Origin: a virus
Virus record (IMG/VR): IMGVR_UViG_3300027749_000419
Span: 1-27,612 of that record
Length of the DNA: 27,612 nt
Reading direction: 5' to 3' (one strand)
The notes beneath the pieces were generated by a model. It saw only the letters and a list, made by a program, of their open reading frames with translations, was not told the DNA's origin and ran no database searches. Both the position numbers and the translations under genes were made by a program. This document shows positions 69-27,372 of the stretch, piece after piece. Numbering within the stretch: the first letter of the stretch is position 1; each line of letters opens with the position of its first letter.

Positions 69-76
69 TATTTATC
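69..76 (-). promoter_or_regulatory. T4-type late promoter motif before the second fibre gene
   Basis: The minus strand reads GATAAATA, followed by ACATTAAATC. T4 late promoters use TATAAATA at about -13 to -6, and related cyanophage promoters tolerate changes at the first base. A start site about six bases downstream would give a leader of about 19 bases containing the GGAG at 54-57. The motif overlaps the stop codon of the collagen-like fibre gene, so the next fibre can be transcribed independently. It is one of only four ATAAATA occurrences on this strand that I found. Confidence 0.55.
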
Positions 77-1007
77 ACCATGCGCCCCACGGTATTCGCT
101 TCCATATATAAGAAGAACCATCAGTCCAATCAGTGGTGCAGTAATATATGTAGTTATTATCAAATGCAAACATGCCTTGTTTGTGACCACGTATTCCACT
201 TTTTGTCGTGGGAGGTGCTACCCCTAAAATTCCGTTGGCACTGTTGGCAACACTACCATCGCCATAGTACACAGCATTGGTGTAGGTATGATTCCAGCGT
301 TTTACCGAAGTGCCAATGTCCTGTGTGTTGGTAACTGACGGAACCAGCGAGGGTGCGCTAATTTCTACAGCGCCTGAACCGTTTGGATCAATTATGATGT
401 TTTGATTTGTTCCTGTTCCCAATATGGTCTGCGTGCCGCCCGCAAATGCGCTGCCCGAGCCCGGTGTACCACTGGGACCGGTTGCACCGGTGTCGCCGGT
501 TGCGCCACGTGGGCCTGTTGCACCGGCCGGACCTGTTGCACCAGTTGAGCCGGTTGCACCTATTCCGGTAGCACCGGTATCTCCTGTAGCACCTGTACGA
601 CCTGTGGGACCTGTGGCACCTGTTTCTCCTGCGGGGCCTGTTGCGCCACGTGGGCCAGTTGCGCCAGTTGGGCCAGTTGCACCGACGTTGCCAGCTGGCC
701 CAGTTGCACCACGTGGACCAATAGTTCCCACTTGCCGCCATTCAGCGCCATTCAGCGCATTTGCAGCCACGTACCAAAATTTCAGTGTGGTATTGGTGGT
801 GTCGTACCACAGTTGTCCTTCCAGCGGATTTGGCGGTGGTGTATCATTAGCAAAGTTTTCTAATAGATGTACAAAGTTGTCTGCCAACAGTTCGCCATAC
901 CCGGCATAACTGCGCCCTATTAGATTAAGTCCAGTAGAAGTATCTACCTCACCTTCGATAATAGTGAGTAAATTCCTACCGTTAGTTTTTCTTACTACAT
1001 ATGGCAT
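75..1007 (-). CDS. Collagen-like phage tail fibre protein
   Basis: This 310-residue protein has three parts. Residues 1-80 form an N-terminal domain (TNG at 8-10, [20 protein letters not shown] at 31-50, then an EGQLWYDT segment) typical of fibre proteins in marine T4-like phages. Residues 97-186 are about 29 collagen-type Gly-X-Y triplets, mostly GAT, GPT, GPR and GPA, broken once by a two-residue GI step near residue 148. Residues 187-310 form a C-terminal tip with the [21 protein letters not shown] segment that resembles trimerising fibre tips, ending in a Trp-rich [10 protein letters not shown]. The protein is expected to form a trimer outside the virion and may contact the host. The start has no clear Shine-Dalgarno sequence and lies four bases after the preceding gene's stop, so translation is probably coupled. 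The fibre role is inferred from the family; the receptor is unknown. Confidence 0.8.
450..719 (-). repeat. Gly-X-Y triplet repeat (collagen-like region)
   Basis: This 270-base stretch encodes residues 97-186 of the fibre. It is a nine-base-periodic, imperfect repeat built from GGTGCAACT-like and GGCCCA-like units, each triplet beginning with a glycine codon. Such repeats change length easily by slippage or unequal recombination. A two-residue GI phase break near residue 148 leaves 17 triplets on one side and 12 on the other; in collagens such breaks introduce a kink or flexible point. Confidence 0.85.
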
Positions 1008-1011
1008 ATGG

Positions 1012-1716
1012 TTAGCTTGTTAAATTGGTAATAGTCTGTATACGAACTGTATAGTCAATCTGTATCTGACGATTTAAACTCTTTTGTACCGGGTGGAAAA
1101 CCACGTGCGTCAGTAGTTTTCCCAGGCCCGGACCGGCCGCATTGAATCCCTTTAATCCTAGCTCGTCAAATACATAGCTGTTGTTGGTGTTTTGTGCATT
1201 ATCAAATGGCAGCTGATCTCCAGGCTCGCCGTAATCCAACAGGCAGGTAACGATAATATCACTATAAACATTACCAGGCACGTGTGTGATAGTCATCTTG
1301 TTGTTAAGTGGCGCTAGGTTTAGCGGATTTAGATTATCAACTATTTTATAGTAGGTAGGATTGTATAGATCGCTGCCCTGTGTTTTTACATTTGGCGGGA
1401 GATAATTGATAACTCCGGTAGGGTCAACGGTGGTACCACCATTGCCAAGATGCATTTCTGTCACAAAACCAACACCCTTGTTGGCTAAACTGTTGGCCAT
1501 AGCTTCACTCATGTTTTCATAGTGAATAGCATTGCGTTTGTTAACAAACACTTCTCCAGAGTCTGGGTCAAAAATTTTAATGTGCCCTTGTATTGCTACT
1601 CCCGATTTTTCGTCAGGCTTGGTGCTTTGTGGTGGCACAGACAAAGATATGCTGTTGTTTTCTTCTTCTTCAGCCAAGCTGGAAAATAGATTTGGGTTCA
1701 TGTTATTATTTATCAT
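1012..1716 (-). CDS. Putative virion structural protein, function unknown
   Basis: I do not recognise a named function for this 234-residue protein. It begins with an Asn- and Glu-rich, probably disordered leader (about residues 1-40). A beta-rich core follows, with segments such as [20 protein letters not shown] and [17 protein letters not shown], and the C terminus ends in alternating hydrophobic strands. There is no signal peptide or membrane segment. It starts two bases after the stop of the giant protein gene and ends four bases before the collagen-like fibre, so it belongs to the late structural operon. Its position between a wedge-like protein and the fibres suggests a baseplate or fibre adaptor, which is inference only. 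Met6 (codon at 1699-1701) is an alternative start; neither start has a good Shine-Dalgarno sequence. Confidence 0.7.
1707..1714 (-). promoter_or_regulatory. Late-promoter-like motif overlapping a gene start
   Basis: The minus strand reads GATAAATA followed by ATAACATG. It matches the late-promoter core but overlaps codons 1-3 of the 234-residue protein, ending only five bases before the Met6 codon. If it is used, the transcript would begin almost exactly at Met6 and be leaderless, or it would serve the downstream fibre gene at 1007. It could equally be a chance match in an AT-rich start region. Confidence 0.25.
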
Positions 1717-4700: not shown

Positions 4701-7700
4701 GCCTTTTACCCAATAATAATAGGTAGTGGTAATTATTCCAGTAGTTTGGTCTGCCCCATTGATCATTACATAGGCACTGTCATCTGCATGCAGCGGTGTA
4801 CCTTTGTTTTTGCCAAATTTAGAATACTTACTGGGTAATACAGTACTGGAAATCCACTCGTATACAGAGATTACACTGCCTGGGAATAATTTACCCCAAT
4901 TTTTTAATCGGTAGCTTAGATCTTCTTGTTCGTAATCAATGAATCTAGCAGTATCCAAGTTCCACCATGTTTTACCAACCTGTGCGCTGTTCCAGTGATA
5001 CTCATCATTCAGTGTACGATCAATCTTTGTCCCGGCATTGTAGCTGGCTGGATCCTGGCTGGATTTATAATCAAGTGCAGATTCAGCAGCACCAAATATT
5101 TTACCCTTTGCCGGATCAATATAATCCAACGGTGTCAGTGTTTTATTCTCAACGCGATTGTATAAGTGTACCCCAGTTATTCCGTTTACATCTACACTGG
5201 GCATCTGTTGCCGCGACAATACCCATCCTTTGTCGCCGCGGGCATTTGTGAATCTATAAACTTCACCAGAATTTGTTCCTTGTGGCAGCAAATTGTTATC
5301 GTGCATGGCTGATCCTATCAACATGGTACCAGCATTGAAATCAATTCCACTGCCAAACCCATCGCCTATCAGTAATTTTGGTGCTGTGAATTCTTGACTG
5401 AATCCAAATGTGCCATATGGGTCAATGTCGGCCACTGTGGAAGACAAGTAATCATATGCATAGACTACACCGGTTCCCATGGTATAGTCTATGAATCTAG
5501 TGCTGTCGCTATCAAATGTTGTTGTTTTACTGTCTAGGTATGCATACTCTGTTGAGGATCCACCCAATGCACTGATCAACAGCGTTTCGGCGTCCTGCGA
5601 AATACACAAGCGAGTACCAAATCTGTCTCCTTCAGACGATGTCAGTGGTTTAACAATCTTTTGTGTTGCTTGAAAGATTGAAATTCCCAATTGATTGATT
5701 AGGTCGCCAGTCAATGGCACAATATCTAATCTATTATAGATATTGGTAATAGATGATGATATCAATATATTGCCGTCACTGACCCTGGCTGTAACTCCTA
5801 GTATTGCAGCAGAGTTTACTGCTGCTGCAAAATCAGGCAAGGATCCGCCAGCAAATATCACAGCAATTCCATTTATGCCCATGGATCCTGCTGTTAATGT
5901 GGAAACTGTTGGGCGGCCGATAACCTGACCCAGCACCAGGCCAGCATTGACAAATCTAAATACAGCACCACCAGAATACCCAGAATAACTGTATCCGGGC
6001 GCACCAACATAGACACTGCAATCGTTTGGACAAATTTCTACACTGACCCCGACTCTGCCACGATAGGTGGCAGAGTCAGCTGCAAGTTGCTGCATTAATT
6101 CTGGGCCATTACCGGTATTTTTATAAACATAGGCAGCACCGGCATATATCACTTCATTTGCTGTGGCGTCCGGGGCGCCCACAACCAACATCTTTCCAGT
6201 TTTTTCAGTTCTAACACTGTAACCAAACACCGAATTTGTCACGCCTTGTATGGTGCTGATGTAAGAATAATATGATCTCTGGGTCACTACCAGGAAGTCG
6301 TTGAACCCTGTATTGGTAAGTTCGGGTATTATATCATTGGCATAAATTGAGTCTGGTGATAACACCACTGTGTTACCTAATATTGTGTAATCTGTTCCAA
6401 GTGTTAACAGTGCATCTTTATAATAAACTGCGATACTGTTGGCATCGGTTATGGTATAAGGAACACTGTAGTGTGTTATGCTTGGGCTGGCGCTGAATGC
6501 TTTTGTCCTAAACTCATAAGTTTGCAATTGATACGCATGAACTTTGTCTGCCCCAGGACTGCCCACATACAACCAACGACCATTTCGACTGGCTGCAATG
6601 CTGAACCCAAATTTTGCACCTGCGGTGGGATTGGGCGAATTGATATATTGCACCGGTCGTATGTATGTGTCGCCAACTTGAGAATACACAACCACGGTTC
6701 CGGTTTTATTGTTGGAATTTGGTGCACCGGATATGATGTGTAGGTCAGTATAGTCAACACTGGTTCCCAATGCAGTCAAATCAATATTGTTTATTGGCAG
6801 TATTGGTATTTCTTTTTTAATGCTGTCATTGTTGAATACATGCAAGCTGCCGCGGTGATTGAACTCACCGGGACTGCCAATGACCAGTGTATCCCCACGG
6901 GGATTGATTCTAACCGATGTGCCGAATAGGAAATTGGGCCCGTGCTGATATTTTTCTATTTCTATGTTGTCATTCAGTTGCCATGGACTTTGCTTTTTGT
7001 AAACTGCCCATAGACCTTGATGATCAGCATCGACCCAGGTCAAATCTCCATCCTTCCATGTATGCAACGGAGTTGCAGCGGCAATATACTTTGGAGATTC
7101 AAATCTCAAAGAGTGCAATGCCAGTAATACGCCGGTGCCGGTCAATGCAGCGGCTTTCAACAGTTTACTTATTTCAGTAGTGGTTGCAATAGTAAATGAC
7201 CTGCTGTCTAGTGTTATACCAGTCACAGTGTGGAACCCATCAATAATTGAATTGAATTGTTTTACGATAACTGTATCGCCAATTGCAAAGCCGTGTTGAT
7301 TTTTTGTAGTCACTGTTGCAGATAAATCCAAAGAATAAGCCACACTGACCACAGTGTTGTTAGTTTCATTTACGCGATAGATATCCCAGTCACGATTGGT
7401 GCTTTTGGCTACCCATATGGTGTATCCGCTGTTGATATTGGACAAGTTGGACAATAAAGAACCATATGAATTACCATCAAATACTGTAGCATCAACATCA
7501 TTTAAATTTACATAACCGGCGGTTTGTATATCATTACTGCGGTCAGTGTTGGCATTGCGATTGAGGAATTTAACAGGGCCCGGTTGGAACGGCCTAGAAT
7601 ATAAATTTTTATCTTTAACTGATACCATGCCCGGGACGACAGACCGATCATTATTGTCAACAATGGTTATGCCCAATTGTGTGGTTGATGGCCAAGCATC

Positions 7701-13700: not shown

Positions 13701-14111
13701 GTTGGGTAACCAATAGTATTGACTGTAATTGATAAATTTGTCAAAGTCAAACAGCCCGTCGTATGTGTACATTTCAGACTGAAAAAGTCTGTCATGGTTT
13801 GATGTTTTGGCATTGTAATATTTTAATTTATTGATCAAATCTGTGTAGCCACTGTATTGATCTATAGATCCATTAACAGCCTTTGTTATTACACTAGGCT
13901 CAAGTTGATAGTTTGTACGATCAGCTGTGGATTCGGCAATATAATTATCTTTGAATTGATATGTTGGGGCAAACTTGCGACCAACATATCCATTGAATCT
14001 AACAAAATTAGGCTCGGATAGCAACTGATCCAGTGTGGCCGATAGGAATTTACTGTTGGTGTCGGATTGGAATATTTCAGGAAGAAATTGTAATGTTCTA
14101 CTAGTGGCCAT
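1719..14111 (-). CDS. Giant multidomain virion protein (4130 aa) with beta-propeller, probable baseplate/tail component
   Basis: This single open frame of 12.4 kb directly follows gp6 (three-base gap), where T4 carries gp7 (about 1030 residues), so an expanded wedge-associated role is inferred. The N terminus (FLPEIFQSDTNSKFLSATLDQ) and the segments WEMLGFTDEPAWWNSVYGPG (about residue 1475) and YYRQYIDEVKPYRTKIREYK (about 3560) resemble very large virion proteins of marine T4-like phages. Residues about 2391-2967 hold seven FG-GAP-like units with GSPG or GAPx cores, an integrin-alpha-type beta-propeller. At least four degenerate beta modules (core VYxxxxLLxxxxxY) occur near residues 590, 1050, 1280 and 2570. 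A paired Gly-rich motif (GTGYTAPPKV and GQNFRGEPVV) lies near 3640-3710. No enzymatic motif, signal peptide or transmembrane segment was seen. The start has only a distant GGGA, so it is probably coupled to gp6. It is certainly one uninterrupted gene; its exact role is uncertain. Confidence 0.85.
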   Translation of the reverse strand: MATSRTLQFLPEIFQSDTNSKFLSATLDQLLSEPNFVRFNGYVGRKFAPTYQFKDNYIAESTADRTNYQLEPSVITKAVNGSIDQYSGYTDLINKLKYYNAKTSNHDRLFQSEMYTYDGLFDFDKFINYSQYYWLPNGIDPVVVTSAIVNSQQTFILSADTNTKLLNIQNQAGNNPALTLVRGGLYKFYTNRPGARIWIQTEPGITGFKRSQPAISTRDILGVSNNGTEHGTVEFSVPLDTAQDNFLKMPILGAVDYATTQSIDDIRGHRFSKLPTGIDGSITSPNYKTIIFLSSNDTKIYRIQLVTNGDDTDFIQLEIVRTVPVDTRVYIRSGETNIGTEFYNNAGQLEQIPPLTSNLDRLYYQDESNPNAYGTIDLVNNAVKSIDVEEDILGRTGYTSPAGVVFTNGLMVKFDSSVIPTKYANTIYVVEGVGRNITLVKFDDLAFPEPGLAEAGQVPWDHVPYASGNWDEPFKGPPLPDYVVSNRGSLDLNAWARQNRWFHIDVITAAAAYNNTVATFEQATRAQRPIIEFEPSIQLFNNGRVGKSPADIIDTTTINAFGDLHTRQVDFVNQGLVYTLNFTPDRNDTITVTAGGVLVPPDQYSIFGNVLTLSQYQMGFDIRVEANSYRNAIQHSRSLTVNGIDYKEGQRVLFAADLDPLVRTQIYRVQYSLQDNSAKDSYYDGKGHGQISIESAIINFASVSDPVKNVLDTDPTAATRYTWEVLGSTNILTAIKVFGLDYPGSGAVGEITQIDDLGSRHYLIHFTTPYTPTEFNNFDVKLLAPTGNNYVYGINTMFTTDLKVGGAMYDLDGKYLGTVAFIVNDTKLRLEANAAEPVINAEFYYRDPRIQLIVSTDPADVLVGQDTIVSAGGPNKGVTFWYDGAVWNRAQQKRSINQPPKFDVFDMQGRSLSDPVYLSSEFAGTSIFSYSVGSGTPDTVLGFPLTYRNFNSTADILFSNNFDLDQFKYLVNDAFVTKNINLGYLRENKSYTDFTPRTAWTTCIEPSRQYQIINTIAPGDTNYFAIDILPDPAVNIPTLKVYVNNALLATSAYEIVKIGAVNTIHIKSVVIAGDNIDILIFNSAKSSTVGYYQIPDNLNYNSKNVDVTSMSLGQLRNHVTLTGQNALHLTGQLPGDSNLRDINIKSSGGNILQSAAPTIYASLFLISKQVNFINGIDYARREYTKFKNKFLEVAVTLPGLDYNDPSSAIDTILETINAAKNPSFPWYLSDMVPYGQYSSTHYSVINPRDRQFKINSIFDANKLQSRAVMVYNGKKLLTHGVDYEFSTDRPSVIIKNTVYLLTGSVIEIREYDTDGNYIPETPTKLGLYPKFMPKLYIDDTYVDPQQVIRGHDGSITLAFGDFRDLFLLELETRIYNNIKIDHEQLAVDVRDYIPGRFKPTDYSLDEFNNIIQASLLKWSGTNQVDISSNSFFESNNPFSYNYKTSTDVLYDQPLPGYWRGIYQYFFDTDQPHSCPWEMLGFTDEPAWWNSVYGPGPYTSENKLLWDDLAAGKIQQGKRAGVHRKYARPGLLSVIPADEHGNLVPPLGKIAKQFNSGRAGDNFAIGDGAPAETAWRRSSEYPFALQQAVALMKPAVYFASLFDTSVYAKNTLLNQYQQSIMGGRITPAGITIQGEVVNDVMTRTAGYINYIGDYLISLGISAPTKIRTLLDNFDIQLAYRVAGFTDKKYLTALADQYSPTSMNESIIIPDQNYKIQLNKSVPTDRVVYSAVIVKKSPSGYTVTGYDTASPYFTIIPSNTSGESYSIAVQDISATIYKTYQFSKLTVPYGYEFTSRQQVVDFLVSYQRFLNSQGFIFDQYNQDLGAVQDWVVSAQEFLTWTLQGWKTGSLLILSPCNSKLNLISEFSVVDEITNEPLGSKILDPNFSVIKKNNLVIFRQAGNFTIQTANAQTIAYAELDLVQFEHVLIFDNNTIFNDVVYLPELGSRQFRIKLVGNKTNDWDGSLSAPGFVYSSTQVDEWHRGKDYLKGDIVVYKNAYYVALTDLVAANTFAVTSWRTINKSSINTGLLPNFATNAAKSIAAYDVDNSTVDEQTQQFSSGLIGFRSRDYLNDLGVSTASQIKFYQGYIKEKGTKNAIDALKNTSFNNLQNNISYFEEWGLRVGEYGAQDSNHSVGIQLSDAWPSTTQLGITIVDNNDRSVVPGMVSVKDKNLYSRPFQPGPVKFLNRNANTDRSNDIQTAGYVNLNDVDATVFDGNSYGSLLSNLSNINSGYTIWVAKSTNRDWDIYRVNETNNTVVSVAYSLDLSATVTTKNQHGFAIGDTVIVKQFNSIIDGFHTVTGITLDSRSFTIATTTEISKLLKAAALTGTGVLLALHSLRFESPKYIAAATPLHTWKDGDLTWVDADHQGLWAVYKKQSPWQLNDNIEIEKYQHGPNFLFGTSVRINPRGDTLVIGSPGEFNHRGSLHVFNNDSIKKEIPILPINNIDLTALGTSVDYTDLHIISGAPNSNNKTGTVVVYSQVGDTYIRPVQYINSPNPTAGAKFGFSIAASRNGRWLYVGSPGADKVHAYQLQTYEFRTKAFSASPSITHYSVPYTITDANSIAVYYKDALLTLGTDYTILGNTVVLSPDSIYANDIIPELTNTGFNDFLVVTQRSYYSYISTIQGVTNSVFGYSVRTEKTGKMLVVGAPDATANEVIYAGAAYVYKNTGNGPELMQQLAADSATYRGRVGVSVEICPNDCSVYVGAPGYSYSGYSGGAVFRFVNAGLVLGQVIGRPTVSTLTAGSMGINGIAVIFAGGSLPDFAAAVNSAAILGVTARVSDGNILISSSITNIYNRLDIVPLTGDLINQLGISIFQATQKIVKPLTSSEGDRFGTRLCISQDAETLLISALGGSSTEYAYLDSKTTTFDSDSTRFIDYTMGTGVVYAYDYLSSTVADIDPYGTFGFSQEFTAPKLLIGDGFGSGIDFNAGTMLIGSAMHDNNLLPQGTNSGEVYRFTNARGDKGWVLSRQQMPSVDVNGITGVHLYNRVENKTLTPLDYIDPAKGKIFGAAESALDYKSSQDPASYNAGTKIDRTLNDEYHWNSAQVGKTWWNLDTARFIDYEQEDLSYRLKNWGKLFPGSVISVYEWISSTVLPSKYSKFGKNKGTPLHADDSAYVMINGADQTTGIITTTYYYWVKGIPTVPATGDRTLSTMAIEDLISDPKGQNIPYAAILSDHSIGLINCQDYISADTTVLQVNYEKIMNSNIIHNEFELVQEGNGSIPFPTRIINKLVDSLSGTDSAGASVPDISLPRAQQLGLSLRPRQSMVIDKNSAMHNIVQYVNSVFATTTAATKLQNTLKFVSTNWFHADPEPNTAEYDYRVENLDQLAYVNQFDAMGNLLVGLRVLIGRDSEYFNIWTLRVLDINGKYQLIKNQSYDTTKLWDFDTWYSSDYTVGSVPNYVVAEYKDIEKLNIQYGDIVKVLNNLASGFEIYQFATVDSATLVAVERGTLKLNNLIWDTSVNGVGFDNGAFDATTFDKDYSQETRNILTGLEKNIFVDDLLDNYNRLIFVAIKYILSEQKTVDWAFKTSFVNVLHKIRELQQYPVYIKDNTTYYRQYIDEVKPYRTKIREYKIAYNGIDPADTAISDFDLPAYYDSALGRFRSPSGEYPAIDGPLYSTAVYQDWSNNFLNQIENIVLVNKGTGYTAPPKVTVIDSAGVGTGVVAVATINELLGRVEQINIVNPGQNFRGEPVVIIQGNGIGATAYAVLANHKIRSIKTLLKFDRVTYETDITEWLPHTPYNEGARVSYQGVGYQAKFAVPAGNLFNYLLFAKISDSDYTTALDRIAARYQPNRYQVPREFDSNTGIIDLSRIVPNPNLANRVDNSVDVVGDTFMVSPPNYDEVTGLANTDINISGGSILENSIAGIPEELVPGITFDTLNMTVITNLNRNNPSDTSARAAYRLFKDTSDTTEFYAVAGAHDTYLTADLNYNDTVIQLDQVGPVVAAGLPTTIFINGEKIIANKFDSLTNQLSGLIRGASGTPARLVHPAASRVESADKSLKIAGVSDSQTTTYKFKKSKHSFTTTFAVGETPDTVKNQFALYIGPNKLVIDEVNSPLGKRKFNANTAPGDYRLTLDATGYIIVTFTQSAIDRIADGIPIKAVYTRYAQFQEGTLADSVSSISIFLKNNPYY
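5212..6940 (-). repeat. Seven FG-GAP (integrin-alpha-like) beta-propeller units inside the giant protein
   Basis: The units begin LFGTSVRINPRGDTLVIGSP, LGTSVDYTDLHIISGAP, FGFSIAASRNGRWLYVGSP, FGYSVRTEKTGKMLVVGAP, VGVSVEICPNDCSVYVGAP, FGTRLCISQDAETLLISAL and FGSGIDFNAGTMLIGSA. Each is followed, where conserved, by G-x-x-x-V-Y/F, the usual FG-GAP continuation. The GxP cores lie near residues 2413, 2462, 2517, 2645, 2703, 2847 and 2934. The wide gaps after the third and fifth units contain extra domains. Calcium-binding DxDxDG loops typical of integrins were not seen. Seven units match a closed propeller. Confidence 0.75.
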
Positions 14112-14114
14112 ATA

Positions 14115-17100
14115 TTAATTTAGTCCCATGTTGAGTTGGGCTGCGGATAATGATGAGATGATCTCCACGTTTTCAACTGTGGCTGCACTGATAATGATTT
14201 CGTAGGGATTGGCGTTGATCTGATATAAATTACCAAAGCCAACGTTGGCATTTGCAGGTACTATCACTATAGATGCAATGCTTGGTGTCAAGACTTGGTG
14301 TAGATATGCACTCAATTCACTGAAATAGAATCTTTCTCCAAAGTCCCAGTTACTGATATCAAAATAGGTATTGATGGCATTGATAACACTGGATTTGATG
14401 TCGTTGTCACTGGTTGCAATAGCTGAATTTTTTACCACTTTGAATATTGCCTGTAGGCTGGTATCGGCCTTCTTACCAAATATAGGTTTAAAAATTGCGC
14501 TGTTAAAAATAATGGTATCACTGATGCTGCGTTGATCATTTAATGAATCAAACTCTGCAGATAATTCTTGTGTTGTTGGCGCCACGGGCTTGACTACTTT
14601 GTTGCTGGTATCCTGTATCCAATTTTTATAACCGGTCCAATAAGATGATGTCAATAGATAGATATCGTTGATATTGCTGCTGCTGGGATCAATCCTTCTA
14701 TTACTGGGACTGTTGTGTTTGTACTGAAATGATAAACTTTGTCGTCCAATACGTGCCACATAATCGGCTCGAACATCCAACATCATTGAACTGTTCAATT
14801 GATAGAATACATTATCTGTTGTTGCATAAAATAGTTGTCCAGGTAAGAAGGTACGTCTATTTGCTTGTATATCTGCACGAGTGGCATATCTACTGAATAC
14901 CAATTTGGTGTCAACAGACACAGTGTCCTGAAATCTATCGTATCCAGGTACTACCTGAAAGTAGACAAATTTAGCAGTGGGATTCACAACAGGTGCCACA
15001 ATGGATTCAAACAATACAGGATTAGTTGGTATATTGTCGCCGTTGTCATCTTGGAAAGTTACTAGTATTTTATCGCCACTGGAAAGTCCATCACTTCCAA
15101 CAACAGGCTTGTCAATGTACCAAGTGTAGTCGTACCCTAGTGGAGCAGCACTATCTGCTTGTGAGTTGACTTTCAACACTGTGATTTGATCATGCAAAAC
15201 TGTGCCGGTTTTTGTGTCGTATGTTTTATTTTTCTTATCAAAGAAAAATGTAGTTTCTCCGGCACTTTGGAACACATATTCCAATCCACGATAGTATATG
15301 GTGTACGCAGTGTCAGAAAACATGGCTTTGATCAACCAACTGCTGTCCAGCCCAGTGGCACTGTCGTTACCTTGATTTTCTAGACTAAAATTTTCTGTGC
15401 CAAGATTTTCTTCTGTGATAACTGCCCAGTATTGCTTTGTGCTGTCGTATCGAATGCCAAATGTTTTAAATCCCTGCATCAAGGCCACTATGGTATTTGT
15501 AAAAGTACTGGTAAAGTTGTTTTTAAATATTGGATACACTGCGCCCACTAGACAGCCAGTTGGTATTTTAATATTCAACGCCACTGGGCCAATACCAGAT
15601 GTAAAATTACCAAGATTATTGTTGGTGCCGTCGCCAAATACTTCAGTGACCCCGGCATAGATAAACAAGTGGTCTGTAATCAAGGATGGTGTTCCGGGCA
15701 ATAGGTTATTGTTGACATCAAAGTAGTAGCCTGCAGGAGCATCAAACCTAATGATGGCACCTTTTCTTATATAGCCAGCTGGGTCCCCGCTGCCAACGCG
15801 ACCGGCGATTGCCAATGGTTTTAGATTTCTTGTAAAGTACCCGGTGGCACTGTTTGATCCCACTGTGCTTAAATTCCATGCACAGTTGGGCACTGCGTAT
15901 GCGGAATAGTTTGCATAGTACAGATGCATCATTTCTGTGGATGCAATAATTTCGGCCACCAGCTGCTGATTAATCATGTTGACAATATCAGCATTGGAGA
16001 ACGACATGGATTTAAAATTGCGCACAAAAGGATTTGCATAAACAATGCCATCAATGGCAATCACGTTGGTACTTGAAAATTTACCTGTTGTGTCCAGTGT
16101 GTCTAAAAACCTGCTCAGTCCCGAGCTGGTACGGTTAATGCTTTTGACTTTGATAATATTAGTAAAGCTGGTGAAAGGAACTATGTTGTAGTCCTCACCT
16201 GTTATCATGCGATTTTGTGTATAGTATGTTTGCGGCGCACGTTGGCGTATCTGTTCCAGTGTTTCGCGACTGGTTGCATTGGCCACCGAATACTGCAAGC
16301 TGGCACGTATGGTCAGAGTTTCTGCACGACCGGTGCGACTTACATACTGAATAGCCACTGTGATGTTTTGCATTTCATCAGGTGTAATCTTATAAGTCAG
16401 GCCGGTACTGCTGCGATAGTAAAGTCTATAATTGCCTTGAGGGATATTGGCAAAGCTGCCATCACCAAATACTAGATCAATTTGATCGCCAGCACGACTA
16501 TTGATCTGGTAAAGATTTCTCTGTGATTGTTTTGTATATATTACATTTACCCCGGCCACAGCAGGTACACTGGTCCATAGTTTATTTACAGCACCATTGG
16601 GATCTATGTCATACAACCATACATCGGTGTTGTTGACATTGCCGTTATTAAAACTTTGAACTCTGTTGGGTATACTACCACTAAAGGAAAAATCTTGGCT
16701 TGCCAACGAACCCTGCTTGAAGTAAACAAAAAATCCAGTATCGTTTGATCCGTTGCCATAGTTGTCGTTGCGATATAGGATATTAAAAAAATTATTGGTT
16801 CTTGGTGCTGCTTCGTATATATAACTTTTGCCCAGGCTGGTGGCACTGACTGCTTCGAATGTCATACTGACCCCTTCGATGGCCTGTTCAAATTGATATG
16901 TATTCAACACATCGGGTATGATGTTTATACTGTATTCTTCTGTACGAACACCATCAATTGTTTGTGTGTTTCCGGGTTTGCCAATTACCTGACTGGTTGA
17001 TAGTCCTGCATTGATCACTGTGTTAAATTGTTCTACCCAAGCATCGTTGGTACTGTCGTTCCAGTTTACAACCACGCCGGTTAAGTTAAGCCCATTGCTG

Positions 17101-17492
17101 TCATAGACAGCTTCGCTTGTGCTTACACTGTCAATTTTAAGTAGGCCGCTGGCTGATATATTGCGCTTGGGATTATAGCTGACCAAGCGAGCCAATTTAA
17201 GTATACTGTCCCGGCGTTCAGCAGTGTCTATGTAGTTTTCGCGGGCGTTGAGGTCTGCTCTAAACGCCAGGCTTTGACCCATGAACGCAATCAAATCGAT
17301 CAAGGCAATATACTCGCTGCTTTCGGTAAAATCGTTAAAGTCCTCAGGATAGTAAGTCTTGAGGTAATCAATCATACTCTTGCGCAGAGTTTCAAAGTCG
17401 TAACTAGTGAAGTCTGCTTCTTGGAAGGTCTGATAGATCTTCTTCCAATTTTCAGCCACTAATAAACTGTTTTGTCTTGTATTAATTGCCAT
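14115..17492 (-). CDS. gp6: Baseplate wedge protein gp6, enlarged
   Basis: This 1125-residue protein is homologous to T4 gp6, which joins wedges into the baseplate inner ring. Its N-terminal region (NSLLVAENWKKIYQTF, LIAFMGQSLAFRADLNAREN, RRDSILKLARLVSYNPKR, about residues 8-110) is the typical gp6 start. Near residue 343, VFGDGSFANIPQG is the baseplate-J core, and near 408 TSRETLEQIRQRAPQTYYTQ is the usual continuation. The C-terminal segment (INTYFDISNWDFGERFYFSE, about 1036-1060) matches the conserved gp6 end. T4 gp6 has about 660 residues, so the roughly 400 extra residues lie between the J-like core and the C terminus. The gene follows gp25 as in T4-like phages and has its own late-promoter motif at 17511-17518. 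A weak GGA lies about eight bases upstream of the ATG. Confidence 0.92.
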   Translation of the reverse strand: MAINTRQNSLLVAENWKKIYQTFQEADFTSYDFETLRKSMIDYLKTYYPEDFNDFTESSEYIALIDLIAFMGQSLAFRADLNARENYIDTAERRDSILKLARLVSYNPKRNISASGLLKIDSVSTSEAVYDSNGLNLTGVVVNWNDSTNDAWVEQFNTVINAGLSTSQVIGKPGNTQTIDGVRTEEYSINIIPDVLNTYQFEQAIEGVSMTFEAVSATSLGKSYIYEAAPRTNNFFNILYRNDNYGNGSNDTGFFVYFKQGSLASQDFSFSGSIPNRVQSFNNGNVNNTDVWLYDIDPNGAVNKLWTSVPAVAGVNVIYTKQSQRNLYQINSRAGDQIDLVFGDGSFANIPQGNYRLYYRSSTGLTYKITPDEMQNITVAIQYVSRTGRAETLTIRASLQYSVANATSRETLEQIRQRAPQTYYTQNRMITGEDYNIVPFTSFTNIIKVKSINRTSSGLSRFLDTLDTTGKFSSTNVIAIDGIVYANPFVRNFKSMSFSNADIVNMINQQLVAEIIASTEMMHLYYANYSAYAVPNCAWNLSTVGSNSATGYFTRNLKPLAIAGRVGSGDPAGYIRKGAIIRFDAPAGYYFDVNNNLLPGTPSLITDHLFIYAGVTEVFGDGTNNNLGNFTSGIGPVALNIKIPTGCLVGAVYPIFKNNFTSTFTNTIVALMQGFKTFGIRYDSTKQYWAVITEENLGTENFSLENQGNDSATGLDSSWLIKAMFSDTAYTIYYRGLEYVFQSAGETTFFFDKKNKTYDTKTGTVLHDQITVLKVNSQADSAAPLGYDYTWYIDKPVVGSDGLSSGDKILVTFQDDNGDNIPTNPVLFESIVAPVVNPTAKFVYFQVVPGYDRFQDTVSVDTKLVFSRYATRADIQANRRTFLPGQLFYATTDNVFYQLNSSMMLDVRADYVARIGRQSLSFQYKHNSPSNRRIDPSSSNINDIYLLTSSYWTGYKNWIQDTSNKVVKPVAPTTQELSAEFDSLNDQRSISDTIIFNSAIFKPIFGKKADTSLQAIFKVVKNSAIATSDNDIKSSVINAINTYFDISNWDFGERFYFSELSAYLHQVLTPSIASIVIVPANANVGFGNLYQINANPYEIIISAATVENVEIISSLSAAQLNMGLN

Positions 17493-17537: not shown

Positions 17538-17915
17538 TTAATTGACCATAGATGCTGCGTTTGTCTGTTGATTGAAATCAATATACATTTGTGCAGTTTG
17601 ATTGCTTGGGATATAGGTTATTTCCAATGCCAATTGTATCCCGTGTTCGTACTGCGTCACAGTAACTTGATTCAATGCCAAGCGTGGATCTGTTTGGGCT
17701 ATGCGTGTTATATCGTCGACTATTTGCTGCTTGGTCTCGGATGTAAATGGTTCAAACAGCATGTCCCATACTATGGTACCAAATTTGGGATTCATCAACT
17801 TTTCGCCCTTGCGGATGTTAAAATTATTAAAAAGGTCCTGCTTGGCCAGCTCAAAATCTGTGAGACGGAATTTTTTAAATCTATTATAGGTGCTGAATCC
17901 GCGGTAAGTGCTCAT
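17538..17915 (-). CDS. gp25: Baseplate wedge protein gp25
   Basis: This 125-residue protein begins MSTYRGFSTYNRFKKFRLTD and is a homologue of T4 gp25 (132 residues), part of the baseplate inner ring next to gp6 and gp53. The family signature is visible: DLFNNFNIRKGEKLMNPKFG (about residues 28-47), followed by WDMLFEP. A longer reading begins at 18056, but its first 47 residues lie antiparallel to nothing conserved and overlap the end of gp5. The internal ATG at 17915 is preferred because it starts the conserved protein and has AAGG at 17927-17930. The gp5 stop codon lies immediately upstream and overlaps this ribosome-binding area, indicating coupled translation. Confidence 0.92.
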   Translation of the reverse strand: MSTYRGFSTYNRFKKFRLTDFELAKQDLFNNFNIRKGEKLMNPKFGTIVWDMLFEPFTSETKQQIVDDITRIAQTDPRLALNQVTVTQYEHGIQLALEITYIPSNQTAQMYIDFNQQTNAASMVN

Positions 17916-17928
17916 ACTGTATTTAACC

Positions 17929-20124
17929 TTATGCTGTTTTGGGTGCAGCCAGCACATCCACAGCGTAGCGTCCCATGTTAAAATAGGTGGTGCCCGTGGT
18001 ACCATTGGCATCTGACCCACCACCGGTGGTGCGCCAGGTCTTGGATCCACCGGCACCCAACAGGTGAGCGGCTGCTATTGCTCCTGCTACTGTACACTGA
18101 TCGTCGCCGGATTTGATGCCACCGGTGCGATTCAATTGGTTATAGTTTGCTTGTAACAGATTATACATGGCTTTTTCTTGAAAAGCACCATTTTTCAAGA
18201 ATGCCTGCTTGGAATCAATGCCCTCGTTTTGTGCTTTGGTAGTCCAGCTGCTGGTCTGGTCCAGGCACCGGTTACCAGCCAGCTTGAAAGCGTCTGGCTT
18301 GATATAACCTTGATCCACCAGGGCTGCGGCGCCCAGTTGATATTTGCCCATAAAGTTGTATTGATTTACTGATGCATAATTGAATCCGCTTTCGTTCCAG
18401 CCCAACTGTGTCATCAAGGCCTTGGTTTGTGTCACACTTAGCGGACCAACTCCGCCCGGAGGATTTGGATTGTCTGCCCTATCAATATAGGACTTATTGA
18501 CTGGATTTTTCACCCCTGCGTTTGCAGCAGCTACAGGGCCCGGGTCTGTTGGCTTGGATCCGCCTTTGCACTCTACCACAGGTAAATTTTTCGCAGGTGG
18601 TGCACCCGATGTTACCCCAGCACCAGGAATCTTAGGTACTGCAGATGCAGCGCCACCGCCACCGCCACCACCGCCAGGTGTAGGAGTTGCATTTTGTCCG
18701 TCGGTGGCCACTGTGTAGCCTGCTAATGTAGTTTCCATGTGCAATTTCCACGGCTCATGTGTGGGTGCAATTGGTACTATGGTATGCAATGCTTCGTCGA
18801 CACTTTTCCAGACATTGCCTTCTTGGCCAGTGTCAGGTAATTTATTTACTGTCAGTGCCTCGGGACGCTGTATACCAACTGCACCGCCTTCGTTTAATGT
18901 CAGTTGGGTACCAGTCAGAAACAGCCCGGTGGTACCATTAAAAGTCCCGGTGCCGGTTGCATTTAAATTCAGTGCTCCGCTACTGCCAATACCAACTGTG
19001 CTGCCAAACATGGTAAGTGTTTGTCCTGCATTGATGTTCATGTCTGTGGACTGTAGATTGAATGCTTTGCCAGCACTGATGTTCAAGTTGTTTCCTGCAT
19101 TGATATTGATGTCGTTATCGGCATGCAGATTTATATCTGATTGTGCTCGAACGTTCACACTACTGGTGGTATAGATATTCATATGTCCCGGACCAGTAAG
19201 CTCGATCCATGCACTTCCATCACTGTTACCAATATATAAAATATGCTCGCTGTCATTCATCAGCAGCTGGTGACCGCCGCTGGTTCGTAAACGAATCAAT
19301 CTATCTTTGTCTTGCCAGTTGCCGTCGTCCATGACAAATTGATGGCCACCTTTTCTTCCGCGGATAGCATAATCTTTTTCGTATAAGGTACCGTTTTCGA
19401 TATCAGCCAGCAGTGCCGGGGTAACCGGTGGGTCTTTAATTGCACGACCAGGTGTACTGATACCAAACACTGCACTGGGCATTTCCCGCTGACTACTGCT
19501 GGATATTATTCCTCGAATGTAATCTTCGTGTAGTCCTTGAGCAATCAATACCTTGACATGTTCCTCATGTATGGGCTTGGGCAAATTGACAAAATTTGCC
19601 CAGTCAATATCTTGATTTTCATTGAACTCGGCAACCACAGTGTCATTGGGGCTCTTGGGGTATACTGATGCCACGATTGGATCATCAATTTGACTTGTGT
19701 CTACTTTTGGACTGCCGGCCATGCCTGGAACCATGTGATGCCCGATTGTGTTTGGTACACAGGCAAACCAAAATCCACGGTTGGCATCACCAGCGACAAA
19801 CGTACACAGCACAAAATTGCCTATATCCGGAGGAACAAACCACATGCCGTATGTGTGTTTTACTTTTTGGAATGCATTTTGTTCATTGTCGTCATGGTAG
19901 GTACTGCCAAAAAATGGACTAGCATAACTGACTGTGCGCCAGTTTTCTACTTTTTCTTCTTGCCCTGCACCCAGGTCCGGAATCCATACCTGCAATCGGC
20001 CAGATCTGGTGGGATCTAAATTATTTTTTACCTTGGCTATAAATGGACCAGGATCTGATCGTATTGATGACTCTTCGCGACGGAAATGCGCTGGAGGCAA
20101 TTTACTTATTCGTTTATCTCTCAT
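17929..20124 (-). CDS. gp5: gp5-like central spike / baseplate hub with C-terminal muramidase-like domain
   Basis: In this 731-residue spike protein, residues 26-125 form an OB-fold (GPFIAKVKNNLDPTRSGRLQ and a following VWIPDL), as in T4 gp5. Residues about 255-415 are a triple-stranded beta-helix of the gp5/VgrG type: GGHQLLMNDS, then alternating short repeats such as INLHADNDININAGNNLNIS. A Gly/Pro/Ala linker (483-512, including eight glycines) leads to a C-terminal domain (about 560-725) with LGWNESGFNYASVNQYNFMG and GKYQLGAAAL, typical of lysozyme/transglycosylase-like cell-wall hydrolases. Glu578 in NESGF is the likely catalytic acid. T4 gp5 instead has its lysozyme between the OB and helix domains. 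The start has AGGA at 20132-20135 and overlaps the previous stop as ATGA. Confidence 0.9.
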   Translation of the reverse strand: MRDKRISKLPPAHFRREESSIRSDPGPFIAKVKNNLDPTRSGRLQVWIPDLGAGQEEKVENWRTVSYASPFFGSTYHDDNEQNAFQKVKHTYGMWFVPPDIGNFVLCTFVAGDANRGFWFACVPNTIGHHMVPGMAGSPKVDTSQIDDPIVASVYPKSPNDTVVAEFNENQDIDWANFVNLPKPIHEEHVKVLIAQGLHEDYIRGIISSSSQREMPSAVFGISTPGRAIKDPPVTPALLADIENGTLYEKDYAIRGRKGGHQFVMDDGNWQDKDRLIRLRTSGGHQLLMNDSEHILYIGNSDGSAWIELTGPGHMNIYTTSSVNVRAQSDINLHADNDININAGNNLNISAGKAFNLQSTDMNINAGQTLTMFGSTVGIGSSGALNLNATGTGTFNGTTGLFLTGTQLTLNEGGAVGIQRPEALTVNKLPDTGQEGNVWKSVDEALHTIVPIAPTHEPWKLHMETTLAGYTVATDGQNATPTPGGGGGGGGAASAVPKIPGAGVTSGAPPAKNLPVVECKGGSKPTDPGPVAAANAGVKNPVNKSYIDRADNPNPPGGVGPLSVTQTKALMTQLGWNESGFNYASVNQYNFMGKYQLGAAALVDQGYIKPDAFKLAGNRCLDQTSSWTTKAQNEGIDSKQAFLKNGAFQEKAMYNLLQANYNQLNRTGGIKSGDDQCTVAGAIAAAHLLGAGGSKTWRTTGGGSDANGTTGTTYFNMGRYAVDVLAAPKTA

Positions 20125-24589: not shown

Positions 24590-25606
24590 ATGACTAATCT
24601 ATTTAAAAAAGCCGCGATATTCACGGACATACACTTTGGGTTGAAATCAAACAGTCAAGTACACAACGACGACTGTTTGAATTTTGTCAAATGGGCCACT
24701 GCCAAGGCCAAGTCGGAAGGTTGCGAAACAGCCATGTTTCTTGGTGACTGGCACAACAACAGAGCCAGTATCAATATTGTAACTTTGAACTACAGCCTTA
24801 GGGCACTAGAGCATTTAAATGATAACTTTGATCGTGTTTATTTTATTCCCGGCAACCATGATCTGTATTATCGCGATAAACGCGATATCCAATCGGTTGA
24901 CTGGGCTCGTCACCTCCCGAACATTCAAATTGTTAACGATTGGTTTGCTAGTGGGGATGTGGTTATCGCTCCTTGGCTTGTTGGGGACGACCACAAGCGA
25001 ATCCCTCGACTATCAGCCAAGTACATGTTTGGGCACTTTGAACTGCCAGGATACCTGATGAACGCCATGGTGGCCATGCCAGATCATGGTGAGGTGCGCA
25101 GAGAACACTTCAACAACTTTGATCATGTGTTTACTGGTCACTTCCACAAGCGACAGACACAGAAGAACATCACCTATATTGGCAACTGCTTTCCGCACAA
25201 CTATGCCGATGCTGGTGACGACGATCGAGGACTTACAATTTTGGAATGGGGTCGAGACCCGGTGTATCATGCTTGGCCCGATCAACCGCGGTATCGTGTG
25301 TTCAAGCTAAGTGACGTGCTAAATCACGCCGAAGCCATGCTGCTGCCAGGTATGCATTGTAGGGTCAACATTGATATTGACATCAGCTATGAAGAAGCTA
25401 CATTTATCAAAGAAACTTTTATTGACACTTATCGTCTAAGAGAGATCAGTTTGATTCCGCAGAAGGAAATTGATCTCGGCGAGAACATCATGCTGGGTAA
25501 TATACAGTTTGAAAGTGTCGATCAGATCGTTACCAGCCAGATAACCAACATCTCCAGCGACAAGTTTAATTCAAACCTGCTGCTGGACATCTATAGAAAT
25601 CTATGA
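24590..25606 (+). CDS. gp47: Recombination endonuclease subunit gp47 (Mre11/SbcD-type)
   Basis: This 338-residue protein is a calcineurin-like phosphoesterase. The metal-binding motifs are all present: TDIHFG (Asp13, His15), GDWHNNR (Asp53, His55), GNHD (Asn89, His90, Asp91), GHFE (His149) and GHFHKR (His184, His186). With gp46 it would form the Mre11-Rad50-like complex that resects DNA ends for recombination-dependent replication and host DNA degradation. T4 gp47 has 339 residues, so length is normal. The start has no Shine-Dalgarno; a -10-like TATACT (24577-24582) and an ATAC-TT-GTAT dyad lie just before ATG, which would make a transcript from there almost leaderless. Its stop overlaps the gp46 start as ATGA. 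Confidence 0.93.
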   Translation: MTNLFKKAAIFTDIHFGLKSNSQVHNDDCLNFVKWATAKAKSEGCETAMFLGDWHNNRASINIVTLNYSLRALEHLNDNFDRVYFIPGNHDLYYRDKRDIQSVDWARHLPNIQIVNDWFASGDVVIAPWLVGDDHKRIPRLSAKYMFGHFELPGYLMNAMVAMPDHGEVRREHFNNFDHVFTGHFHKRQTQKNITYIGNCFPHNYADAGDDDRGLTILEWGRDPVYHAWPDQPRYRVFKLSDVLNHAEAMLLPGMHCRVNIDIDISYEEATFIKETFIDTYRLREISLIPQKEIDLGENIMLGNIQFESVDQIVTSQITNISSDKFNSNLLLDIYRNL

Positions 25607-27372
25607 TACGTATCAAGAATTTGACTGTTAAGAATTTCATGAGCGTGGGCAATGTCACGCAGGCTGTGGACTTTGACCGCAAGGATCTCACACTGGTACT
25701 AGGCGAAAACATTGACCTAGGCGGTGATGATACTGGCAGCAGGAACGGTACCGGCAAGACCACTATCATCAATGCACTCAGCTATGCCCTGTATGGTGCT
25801 GCGCTGACCAACATACGCAAAGACAACTTGATCAATAAGACCAACGGCAAGGGCATGATTGTCACTGTCGAGTTTGAGAAGGACGGTACTGACTATCGTA
25901 TTGAGCGTGGACGCAAGCCCAACACCATGGCCTTCTACGTGGGCAATGTTGAGCGCGAAATCACAGACGAGAGCCAAGGCGACAGCAGAGAAACACAGGC
26001 AGACATAGAACGCATGCTGGGTATGAGCTGGGATATGTTCCGCCATATCGTAGCATTAAACACCTATACCGAGCCGTTTCTCAGCCTGAAAGCCAACGAT
26101 CAGCGCACTATCATTGAACAACTGCTGGGCATCACAGTGCTAAGTGAAAAAGCAGAACGTCTTAAAGAACTAAACAAAGCCACTAAAGATGCTATACAGC
26201 AAGAAGAGTTCCGCATCAAGGCAGTGACAGATGCCAACAGTCGTATCCAAGAACAAATTGAAAGTTTCAAGCGCAGACAGGTGTTGTGGCAGAAAAAGCA
26301 CGACGGCGACTTGGCCTACTTGCAAAAAGGCTACGATGAGTTGAGTCTAATAGATATCGAAGCCGAACTGACCGCACACAAGACCTTGACTGAATACAAT
26401 CAGCGGGTGAAAGATATCTCTGATCTAACCAAGGCCGTTAAACGTGCTGAACTGGACGAGGATCGCGAAAACAAAGTAGTTGAACGACTGCAACGTGAGA
26501 TCGCAGCACTAGAGAATCACCGATGTCATGCATGTGGACAAGACTTGCACGACGACAATCACGAAGCTGCACTGGCCAAGAAACAAAAAGAACTACAAGA
26601 AGCTGCACTACAGGTATTAGCCACCGGCAGTCAGTTAATAGAATTGCAAGATGCGCTAACCGAAGTGGGTCCAGCAGGTACCCCGCCCAGGGTCTACTAT
26701 GATCGAGAAAGCGATGCGTTTGAACATCGCAGCAGCATGGCCAATATATTGAGCCAGATTGCCAGCAAAAACGCAGAAACAGATCCCTATGCAGAACAGA
26801 TAGAAGAAATGGGCACACAGGCCCTGGCAGCCGTAACTTATGACACCATCAACGAATTGGGCAATGTCCGGGAACATCAAGAATTTTTATTGAAGCTGTT
26901 GACCAACAAAGACAGCTTCATACGCAAACGCATTATTGATCAGAATTTGAGTTATTTGAATGCCAGACTGGGACAGTACTTGGATCGCATTGGCTTGCCA
27001 CATGTGGTCAAGTTCAACAACGATCTCACTGTGAGCATAACTGAATTGGGTAGAGAGTTGGACTTTGACAATCTTAGTCGCGGTGAGCGCAATAGACTGA
27101 TACTGAGTCTGTCGTGGGCATTCCGTGATGTTTGGGAAAGTTTGTATCAACCGGTCAATCTCTTGTTCATTGATGAGCTGGTAGACTCGGGCATGGATGC
27201 ATCGGGTGTAGAAAGCGCACTGGCTATCCTAAAACGCATGAGCAGAGAAGCACACAAGAGTATCTGGCTGGTTAGCCACAAAGACGAGTTAGCTGGGCGG
27301 GTCAACAACATCCTGACTGTGGTCAAAGAAAATGGGTTCACCACCTACAATACCGATGTTGAAACTGTATAA
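25603..27372 (+). CDS. gp46: Recombination endonuclease subunit gp46 (Rad50/SbcC-type ATPase)
   Basis: This 589-residue SMC-like ATPase has Walker A GSRNGTGKTT near residues 45-54, preceded by an unusual acidic loop (IDLGGDDT). Charged heptad-rich arms follow (about 180-300 and 315-350), with a zinc hook CHACGQ (Cys308, Cys311) between them. The ABC signature LSRGERNR lies near 491, Walker B LLFIDELVDSG near 521, and the switch histidine in WLVSHKDEL near 555. It pairs with gp47 to process DNA ends. T4 gp46 has 560 residues; all motifs are intact. The start has no visible Shine-Dalgarno and overlaps the gp47 stop by four bases, so it is translated by coupling. Confidence 0.94.
   Translation: MIRIKNLTVKNFMSVGNVTQAVDFDRKDLTLVLGENIDLGGDDTGSRNGTGKTTIINALSYALYGAALTNIRKDNLINKTNGKGMIVTVEFEKDGTDYRIERGRKPNTMAFYVGNVEREITDESQGDSRETQADIERMLGMSWDMFRHIVALNTYTEPFLSLKANDQRTIIEQLLGITVLSEKAERLKELNKATKDAIQQEEFRIKAVTDANSRIQEQIESFKRRQVLWQKKHDGDLAYLQKGYDELSLIDIEAELTAHKTLTEYNQRVKDISDLTKAVKRAELDEDRENKVVERLQREIAALENHRCHACGQDLHDDNHEAALAKKQKELQEAALQVLATGSQLIELQDALTEVGPAGTPPRVYYDRESDAFEHRSSMANILSQIASKNAETDPYAEQIEEMGTQALAAVTYDTINELGNVREHQEFLLKLLTNKDSFIRKRIIDQNLSYLNARLGQYLDRIGLPHVVKFNNDLTVSITELGRELDFDNLSRGERNRLILSLSWAFRDVWESLYQPVNLLFIDELVDSGMDASGVESALAILKRMSREAHKSIWLVSHKDELAGRVNNILTVVKENGFTTYNTDVETV

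Follow-up and report, generated by a model that had tools for sequence, protein, structure and literature searches.

A closed seven-bladed propeller of the integrin type, predicted with near certainty from sequence and model, lies inside a 4130-residue protein whose gene directly follows a gp6-like baseplate wedge gene. It was found in a window of 27,612 nucleotides (the whole of the stretch analysed, positions 1 to 27,612 of IMG/VR record IMGVR_UViG_3300027749_000419), which comes from an uncultured jumbo myophage with PA5oct and RaK2 among its relatives. We lean slightly towards the view that the propeller, carried by a giant protein at the gene position of gp7, serves as an exposed and exchangeable module for host contact, where it would bind ligands. 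The region first singled out in the window, positions 5212-6940 on the minus strand, encodes residues 2391-2967 of the giant open reading frame, and its FG-GAP units together cover residues 2394-2956 (Table 1).

The earlier note had read seven FG-GAP units here, ending in GSP, GAP or decayed forms, and all seven were located. Their FG glycines stand at residues 2397, 2449, 2502, 2630, 2688, 2832 and 2920; units 1 to 5 end in GSP, GAP, GSP, GAP and GAP, and the decayed endings of units 6 and 7 read SAL and GSA. Across the family all seven glycines are kept, and the GAP turn is degenerate in the last two units. The giant protein scores above the cut-off of Pfam FG-GAP_2 (1.3e-13), and 33 of 33 family members match this model. 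A family unit HMM recovered every unit (7/7) with 18-35 bits (E 1.8e-5 to 1e-10), a result that is partly circular because the HMM was built in part from the window's own units; it detected nothing significant in the other open reading frames of the window or in the T4 gene 5-12 region. When the HMM was made from relatives only, six of the seven window units scored above 5 bits. When the protein was shuffled 200 times, no single unit scored higher than 8.4 bits, compared with 31-46 bits for the real units; the HMM used here, too, was partly circular. Non-circular support for the propeller comes from Pfam FG-GAP_2, from the integrin profile matches and from the predicted fold. Searching PHROGs with the window propeller returned no family at E 0.01. 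Unit 5 contains a CxxxC pair (CPNDC, residues 2693-2697), which reads ICSNNC in many relatives and is missing from several members; it possibly forms a disulfide in a hairpin.

Table 1. Features of the propeller, its carrier protein and the adjoining baseplate genes (window coordinates; residues of the giant protein).
Feature	Residues	Position	Strand	Basis
Predicted seven-bladed integrin-type propeller, including inserts	2374-2966	5214..6992	-	AlphaFold2, VIA-align, integrin profile matches
FG-GAP unit 1	2394-2430	6822..6932	-	Unit HMM
FG-GAP unit 2	2446-2491	6639..6776	-	Unit HMM
FG-GAP unit 3, strands a-c	2499-2530	6522..6617	-	Unit HMM
Blade 3 inserted domain, strands c-d	2532-2612	6276..6518	-	Alignment A1, model strands, sub-threshold CBM_X2
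FG-GAP unit 4, clearest unit	2627-2668	6108..6233	-	Best Pfam stretch 2623-2663; unit HMM
FG-GAP unit 5	2685-2722	5946..6059	-	Unit HMM
Blade 5 inserted domain, strands c-d	2723-2812	5676..5945	-	Alignment A1, model; absent from near relative L013
FG-GAP unit 6, decayed GAP	2829-2889	5445..5627	-	Unit HMM
Blade 6 conserved b-c loop	2849-2881	5469..5567	-	Alignment A1 consensus; length constant in relatives
FG-GAP unit 7, decayed GAP	2918-2956	5244..5360	-	Unit HMM
Giant virion structural protein, propeller carrier, 4130 aa		1719..14111	-	Open reading frame; phrog_10938, 1075 bits
gp6-like baseplate wedge gene, upstream neighbour		14115..17492	-	phrog_10646 baseplate wedge subunit, 2.4e-287; phrog_219
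gp25-like baseplate wedge gene		17538..18056	-	Pfam GPW_gp25, 1e-9, above its cut-off

The fold was examined with an alignment of 33 homologous segments (A1), on which both the family profile and the AlphaFold2 input are based. Against the PDB the A1 profile matched integrin alpha chains, the best being alpha-4 at 2.4e-10, and AlphaFold2 predicted a closed propeller of seven four-stranded blades (pLDDT 84.6, pTM 0.85). Foldseek ranked integrins at the top for this model, and VIA-align superposed it on the whole of an integrin-alpha propeller with a Z of 39 and an rmsd of 2.5 Å over 350 aligned residues. Since the aligned span runs from model residue 30 to 621, the entire array forms one propeller. 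The closed integrin-like propeller that the earlier note had placed in the giant protein after gp6 is thus upheld by both routes proposed with it, structure prediction and a profile search against integrin and FG-GAP families.

Beyond that reading, two inserted domains split the array in the window, and blade 6 carries a long conserved b-c loop with the family consensus TTFD...TTFD...TRF.D...GSG. All seven unit positions are present in 33 of 33 aligned copies, a few units being degenerate. Without an insert, about 40-70 residues separate one FG from the next; for blade 6, with its long loop, the distance is 87-106. Inserts of about 60-270 residues occur at blades 3, 4 and 5 in many members and at blades 1 and 7 in a few. 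In four loci (L081, L083, L086 and L089) the propeller is free of inserts and about 385 residues long. L013, whose protein shares about 80% identity with that of the window, has intact blades but is missing the blade 5 insert (83 residues). Pfam CBM_X2 matches the blade 3 insert at 6.4e-4, below its cut-off. By the strand order of the model, the inserts lie between strands c and d, and the blade 6 b-c loop is on the other face; taken together with the published description of integrins, this order would put the inserts on the face that carries the Ca2+ loops in integrins.

The propeller is a clade-specific module, which the earlier note had not seen: it is absent from the cultured relatives of the giant protein and present in nearly all sampled uncultured ones. 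At the site itself, neither HMM nor Pfam detected FG-GAP units in nine cultured jumbo phages with both flanks (PA5oct, RaK2, GAP32, Munch, XaC1, Vibrio 2.275.O, Atu_ph07, Phosso and SCTP-2), nor were hidden units detected by either in the spacer segments of the cultured relatives. A tblastn search with the propeller alone found no match in 50,697 phage records, and a scan of genome contigs with the propeller profile found no relative, a weak negative based on one peptide pattern. IMG/VR holds 249 candidate loci coding for relatives of the propeller query; of these, at least 78 from phages span the site and carry the array, and in all 78 retrieved loci holding both flanks five to seven units are detectable. 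Among loci found via the upstream core and spanning both flanks, a biased sample drawn from the 80 loci closest to the window, all but one carry the propeller. L031 lacks it and has between the same conserved flanks a YHYH domain instead (14018-15103, Pfam 1e-32), as does L259, a separate contig (45% identical over the segment). YHYH domains are predicted hydrolases and are described as fused in many cases to tail or baseplate proteins (PMC7824862). In a core tree, which has a midpoint root and a long branch to PA5oct, the sampled carriers fall into a single clade (100/100), and L031 is nested next to the group of the window; the tree fits a single gain and one later swap. A large insertion of about 1540 residues without a convincing Pfam match occupies the propeller site in Atu_ph07 and Phosso (L003 and L007).

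In 23 of 23 relatives, blade residues share less identity with the window than either flank does (median 34%, compared with 46% and 44%). Taken together, the constant core with exchangeable inserts, this faster divergence, the patchy presence in the family and the YHYH swap fit an exposed host-contact module best, and variable plug-in domains on seven constant blades point to a host-touching surface module but do not prove one. In the mechanism we propose, the giant protein takes the gp7 gene position of the wedge and most likely extends outwards from the wedge of the baseplate, and the propeller would form a disc that is rigid and exposed. One face, that of the c-d loops, would present plug-in domains that differ between phages, and the other the conserved blade 6 loop; the disc may contact ligands of the host envelope, glycan or protein, and thereby help adsorption.

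Faster blade divergence is, however, also expected of a structurally tolerant propeller without host contact. It is possible, if somewhat unlikely, that the propeller acts structurally, as a spacer or clamp that joins neighbouring baseplate proteins or fibres and makes no host contact, with the inserts as docking loops for these partners. The conserved blade 6 loop is what a partner contact would predict, a fixed number of blades with variable loops also suits the docking of different partners, and the family works without a propeller in cultured phages, as it could if the propeller were an accessory scaffold. The swap for YHYH, a proposed tail hydrolase, and the higher divergence of the blades nevertheless favour an exposed role, not decisively.

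Where the propeller would sit in the virion depends on its carrier. The gene order in the window is gp5 - gp25 - gp6 - giant gene, and the giant gene directly follows gp6 in every cultured relative examined; a sequence search found homologues of the protein in PA5oct, RaK2 and Atu_ph07, among others. T4 gene 7 directly follows gene 6, so that the giant gene occupies the matching position. A T4 gp7 homologue was nevertheless not recognized by PDB profiles, PHROGs or hhalign: searches of the PDB with core, flank, N-terminal and KGT-region profiles gave no match, and hhalign stayed under 1% probability whether run with a single gp7 or with a six-member gp7 alignment. T4 gp7 is also not among the Foldseek matches listed for the propeller model, which excludes nothing. 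A KGT motif at residue 2089, which looked gpI/gp7-like, offered a further lead towards gp7 that no profile supported. As gp7 sequence homology was not detected, the wedge placement rests on gene order, and we therefore call the product a giant protein of the baseplate region that occupies the gp7 gene position, and do not call it gp7.

The designation as a virion protein in the earlier note gains from this gene order and from the ESI-MS/MS tag in the record of the PA5oct homologue, from both of which we infer a location in the virion; the tagged homologue itself, however, has no propeller. The PHROG of the giant protein, annotated as a virion structural protein, is filed under head and packaging, and Atu_ph07 bears whiskers associated with its capsid, many of its virion proteins being unplaced (PMC6102473). 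A head- or whisker-associated protein merely adjoining gp6 is nonetheless improbable, given the constant place directly after gp6 and the gp5 - gp25 - gp6 cluster in the window, and a PHROG category reflects annotation and tests nothing. Wedge proteins of the gp7/gpI kind have an N-terminal helical hairpin that bundles with two copies of gp6; in the giant protein, residues 1-165 show conservation (52% mean column identity). AlphaFold2 modelled residues 1780-2345 with low confidence (pLDDT 57.8, pTM 0.25). Pfam CBM_5_12, a chitin-binding-type module, matches the protein at 3.6e-8 in two stretches, the best being residues 3732-3754, and residues of about 1978-2020 resemble it by eye.

On the far side of the giant gene lies a 234-residue protein (1012-1716, minus strand) of phrog_11259, which has no assigned function; it has at least 599 IMG/VR relatives, many of them 55-70% identical, and is conserved better than most of its neighbours. 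It is followed by a collagen-like protein of tail-fibre type (75-1007, minus strand; Pfam Collagen 3e-11). Within that gene, a proline-rich open reading frame of 161 residues (424-909, plus strand) is the Gly-x-y repeat read in antisense and probably no gene. On the strand opposite to the baseplate cluster (24590-27372, plus strand), a calcineurin-like phosphoesterase (Metallophos) beside an AAA/SMC-type ATPase makes up a gp47/gp46-like recombination pair. Rfam and tRNA scans across the window gave no match.

Other seven-bladed propellers are lactonases, mutarotases or hydrolases. It is very improbable that the propeller of the window is likewise an enzyme, with envelope polymers as its substrate. 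In favour are weak, sub-threshold matches, to an NCBIfam mutarotase model (18.3 bits, under its cut-off of 243) and to a Lactonase Pfam in 1 of 33 members, and the fact that YHYH, which replaces it in two relatives, is a predicted hydrolase (PMC7824862). Against it, such enzyme matches do not recur across the family, no catalytic motif was found, and in both profile and fold searches the best matches are all integrin alpha propellers, which are non-catalytic.

The fold itself is not new, and some phages already have proteins annotated as FG-GAP. We found no description of an integrin-type propeller in a gp6-adjacent giant protein in the searchable literature, an absence that is weak evidence because this literature takes in few subscription papers; a survey of jumbo-phage domains (PMC7824862) and a 2026 review (PMC13282480) mention neither FG-GAP nor integrin nor propeller. 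We put forward, tentatively and with more doubt than for host contact itself, that the seven-blade disc serves as a docking station on which domains are exchanged at a few fixed loops of one face and which can itself be swapped for YHYH, giving modular host contact apart from the tail fibres. If the module touches hosts, it would offer a handle on host range in jumbo phages for which metagenomes are the only source, with the insert sites as the places to look.

Like the integrin alpha propeller, that of the window is predicted to be a closed disc of seven four-stranded blades, in which the first strand carries FG and the second is followed by a GAP-type turn (PMC3192720), at about 20% identity. 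Several integrin blades are marked by DxDxDG calcium loops (PMC3192720); by contrast, no such motif was found in the window propeller, where the 1-2 loops are mostly of 8 residues or fewer, and Pfam detected no thigh or calf leg domain, membrane segment or beta-subunit-partner domain in the 4130 residues. As its units lack the Ca2+ loops, we call it integrin-type by fold, not an integrin. Unlike its integrin counterpart, it also sits inside a giant phage protein and has domains inserted in blades 3 and 5. Further viral FG-GAP propellers are found in Cyanophage S-TIM5 (H6WG31), Atu_ph07 (A0A2L0UZX4) and an uncultured member of the Caudovirales (A0A6J5S3H5), all three matched by the model in Foldseek at E 1e-14 or better, and in algal and giant viruses and MntV1 (PMC11467894); these are about 14-15% identical and belong to other, mostly much shorter proteins, not to a gp6-adjacent giant protein. 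The giant proteins of PA5oct, RaK2, GAP32 and Atu_ph07 are of the same family (phrog_10938) and stand in the same place after gp6, with flanks 20-36% identical, whereas short or unrelated spacers of about 50-1540 residues take the site of the propeller. In T4, the family unit HMM result for the gene 5-12 region agrees with the statement in the earlier note that the baseplate has no such module. The wedge protein gp17 of XM1 is likewise encoded directly after gp6 (PMC10457771), and in this shared position the giant protein, with 4130 residues, compares with 1032 for T4 gp7 and 242 for XM1 gp17.
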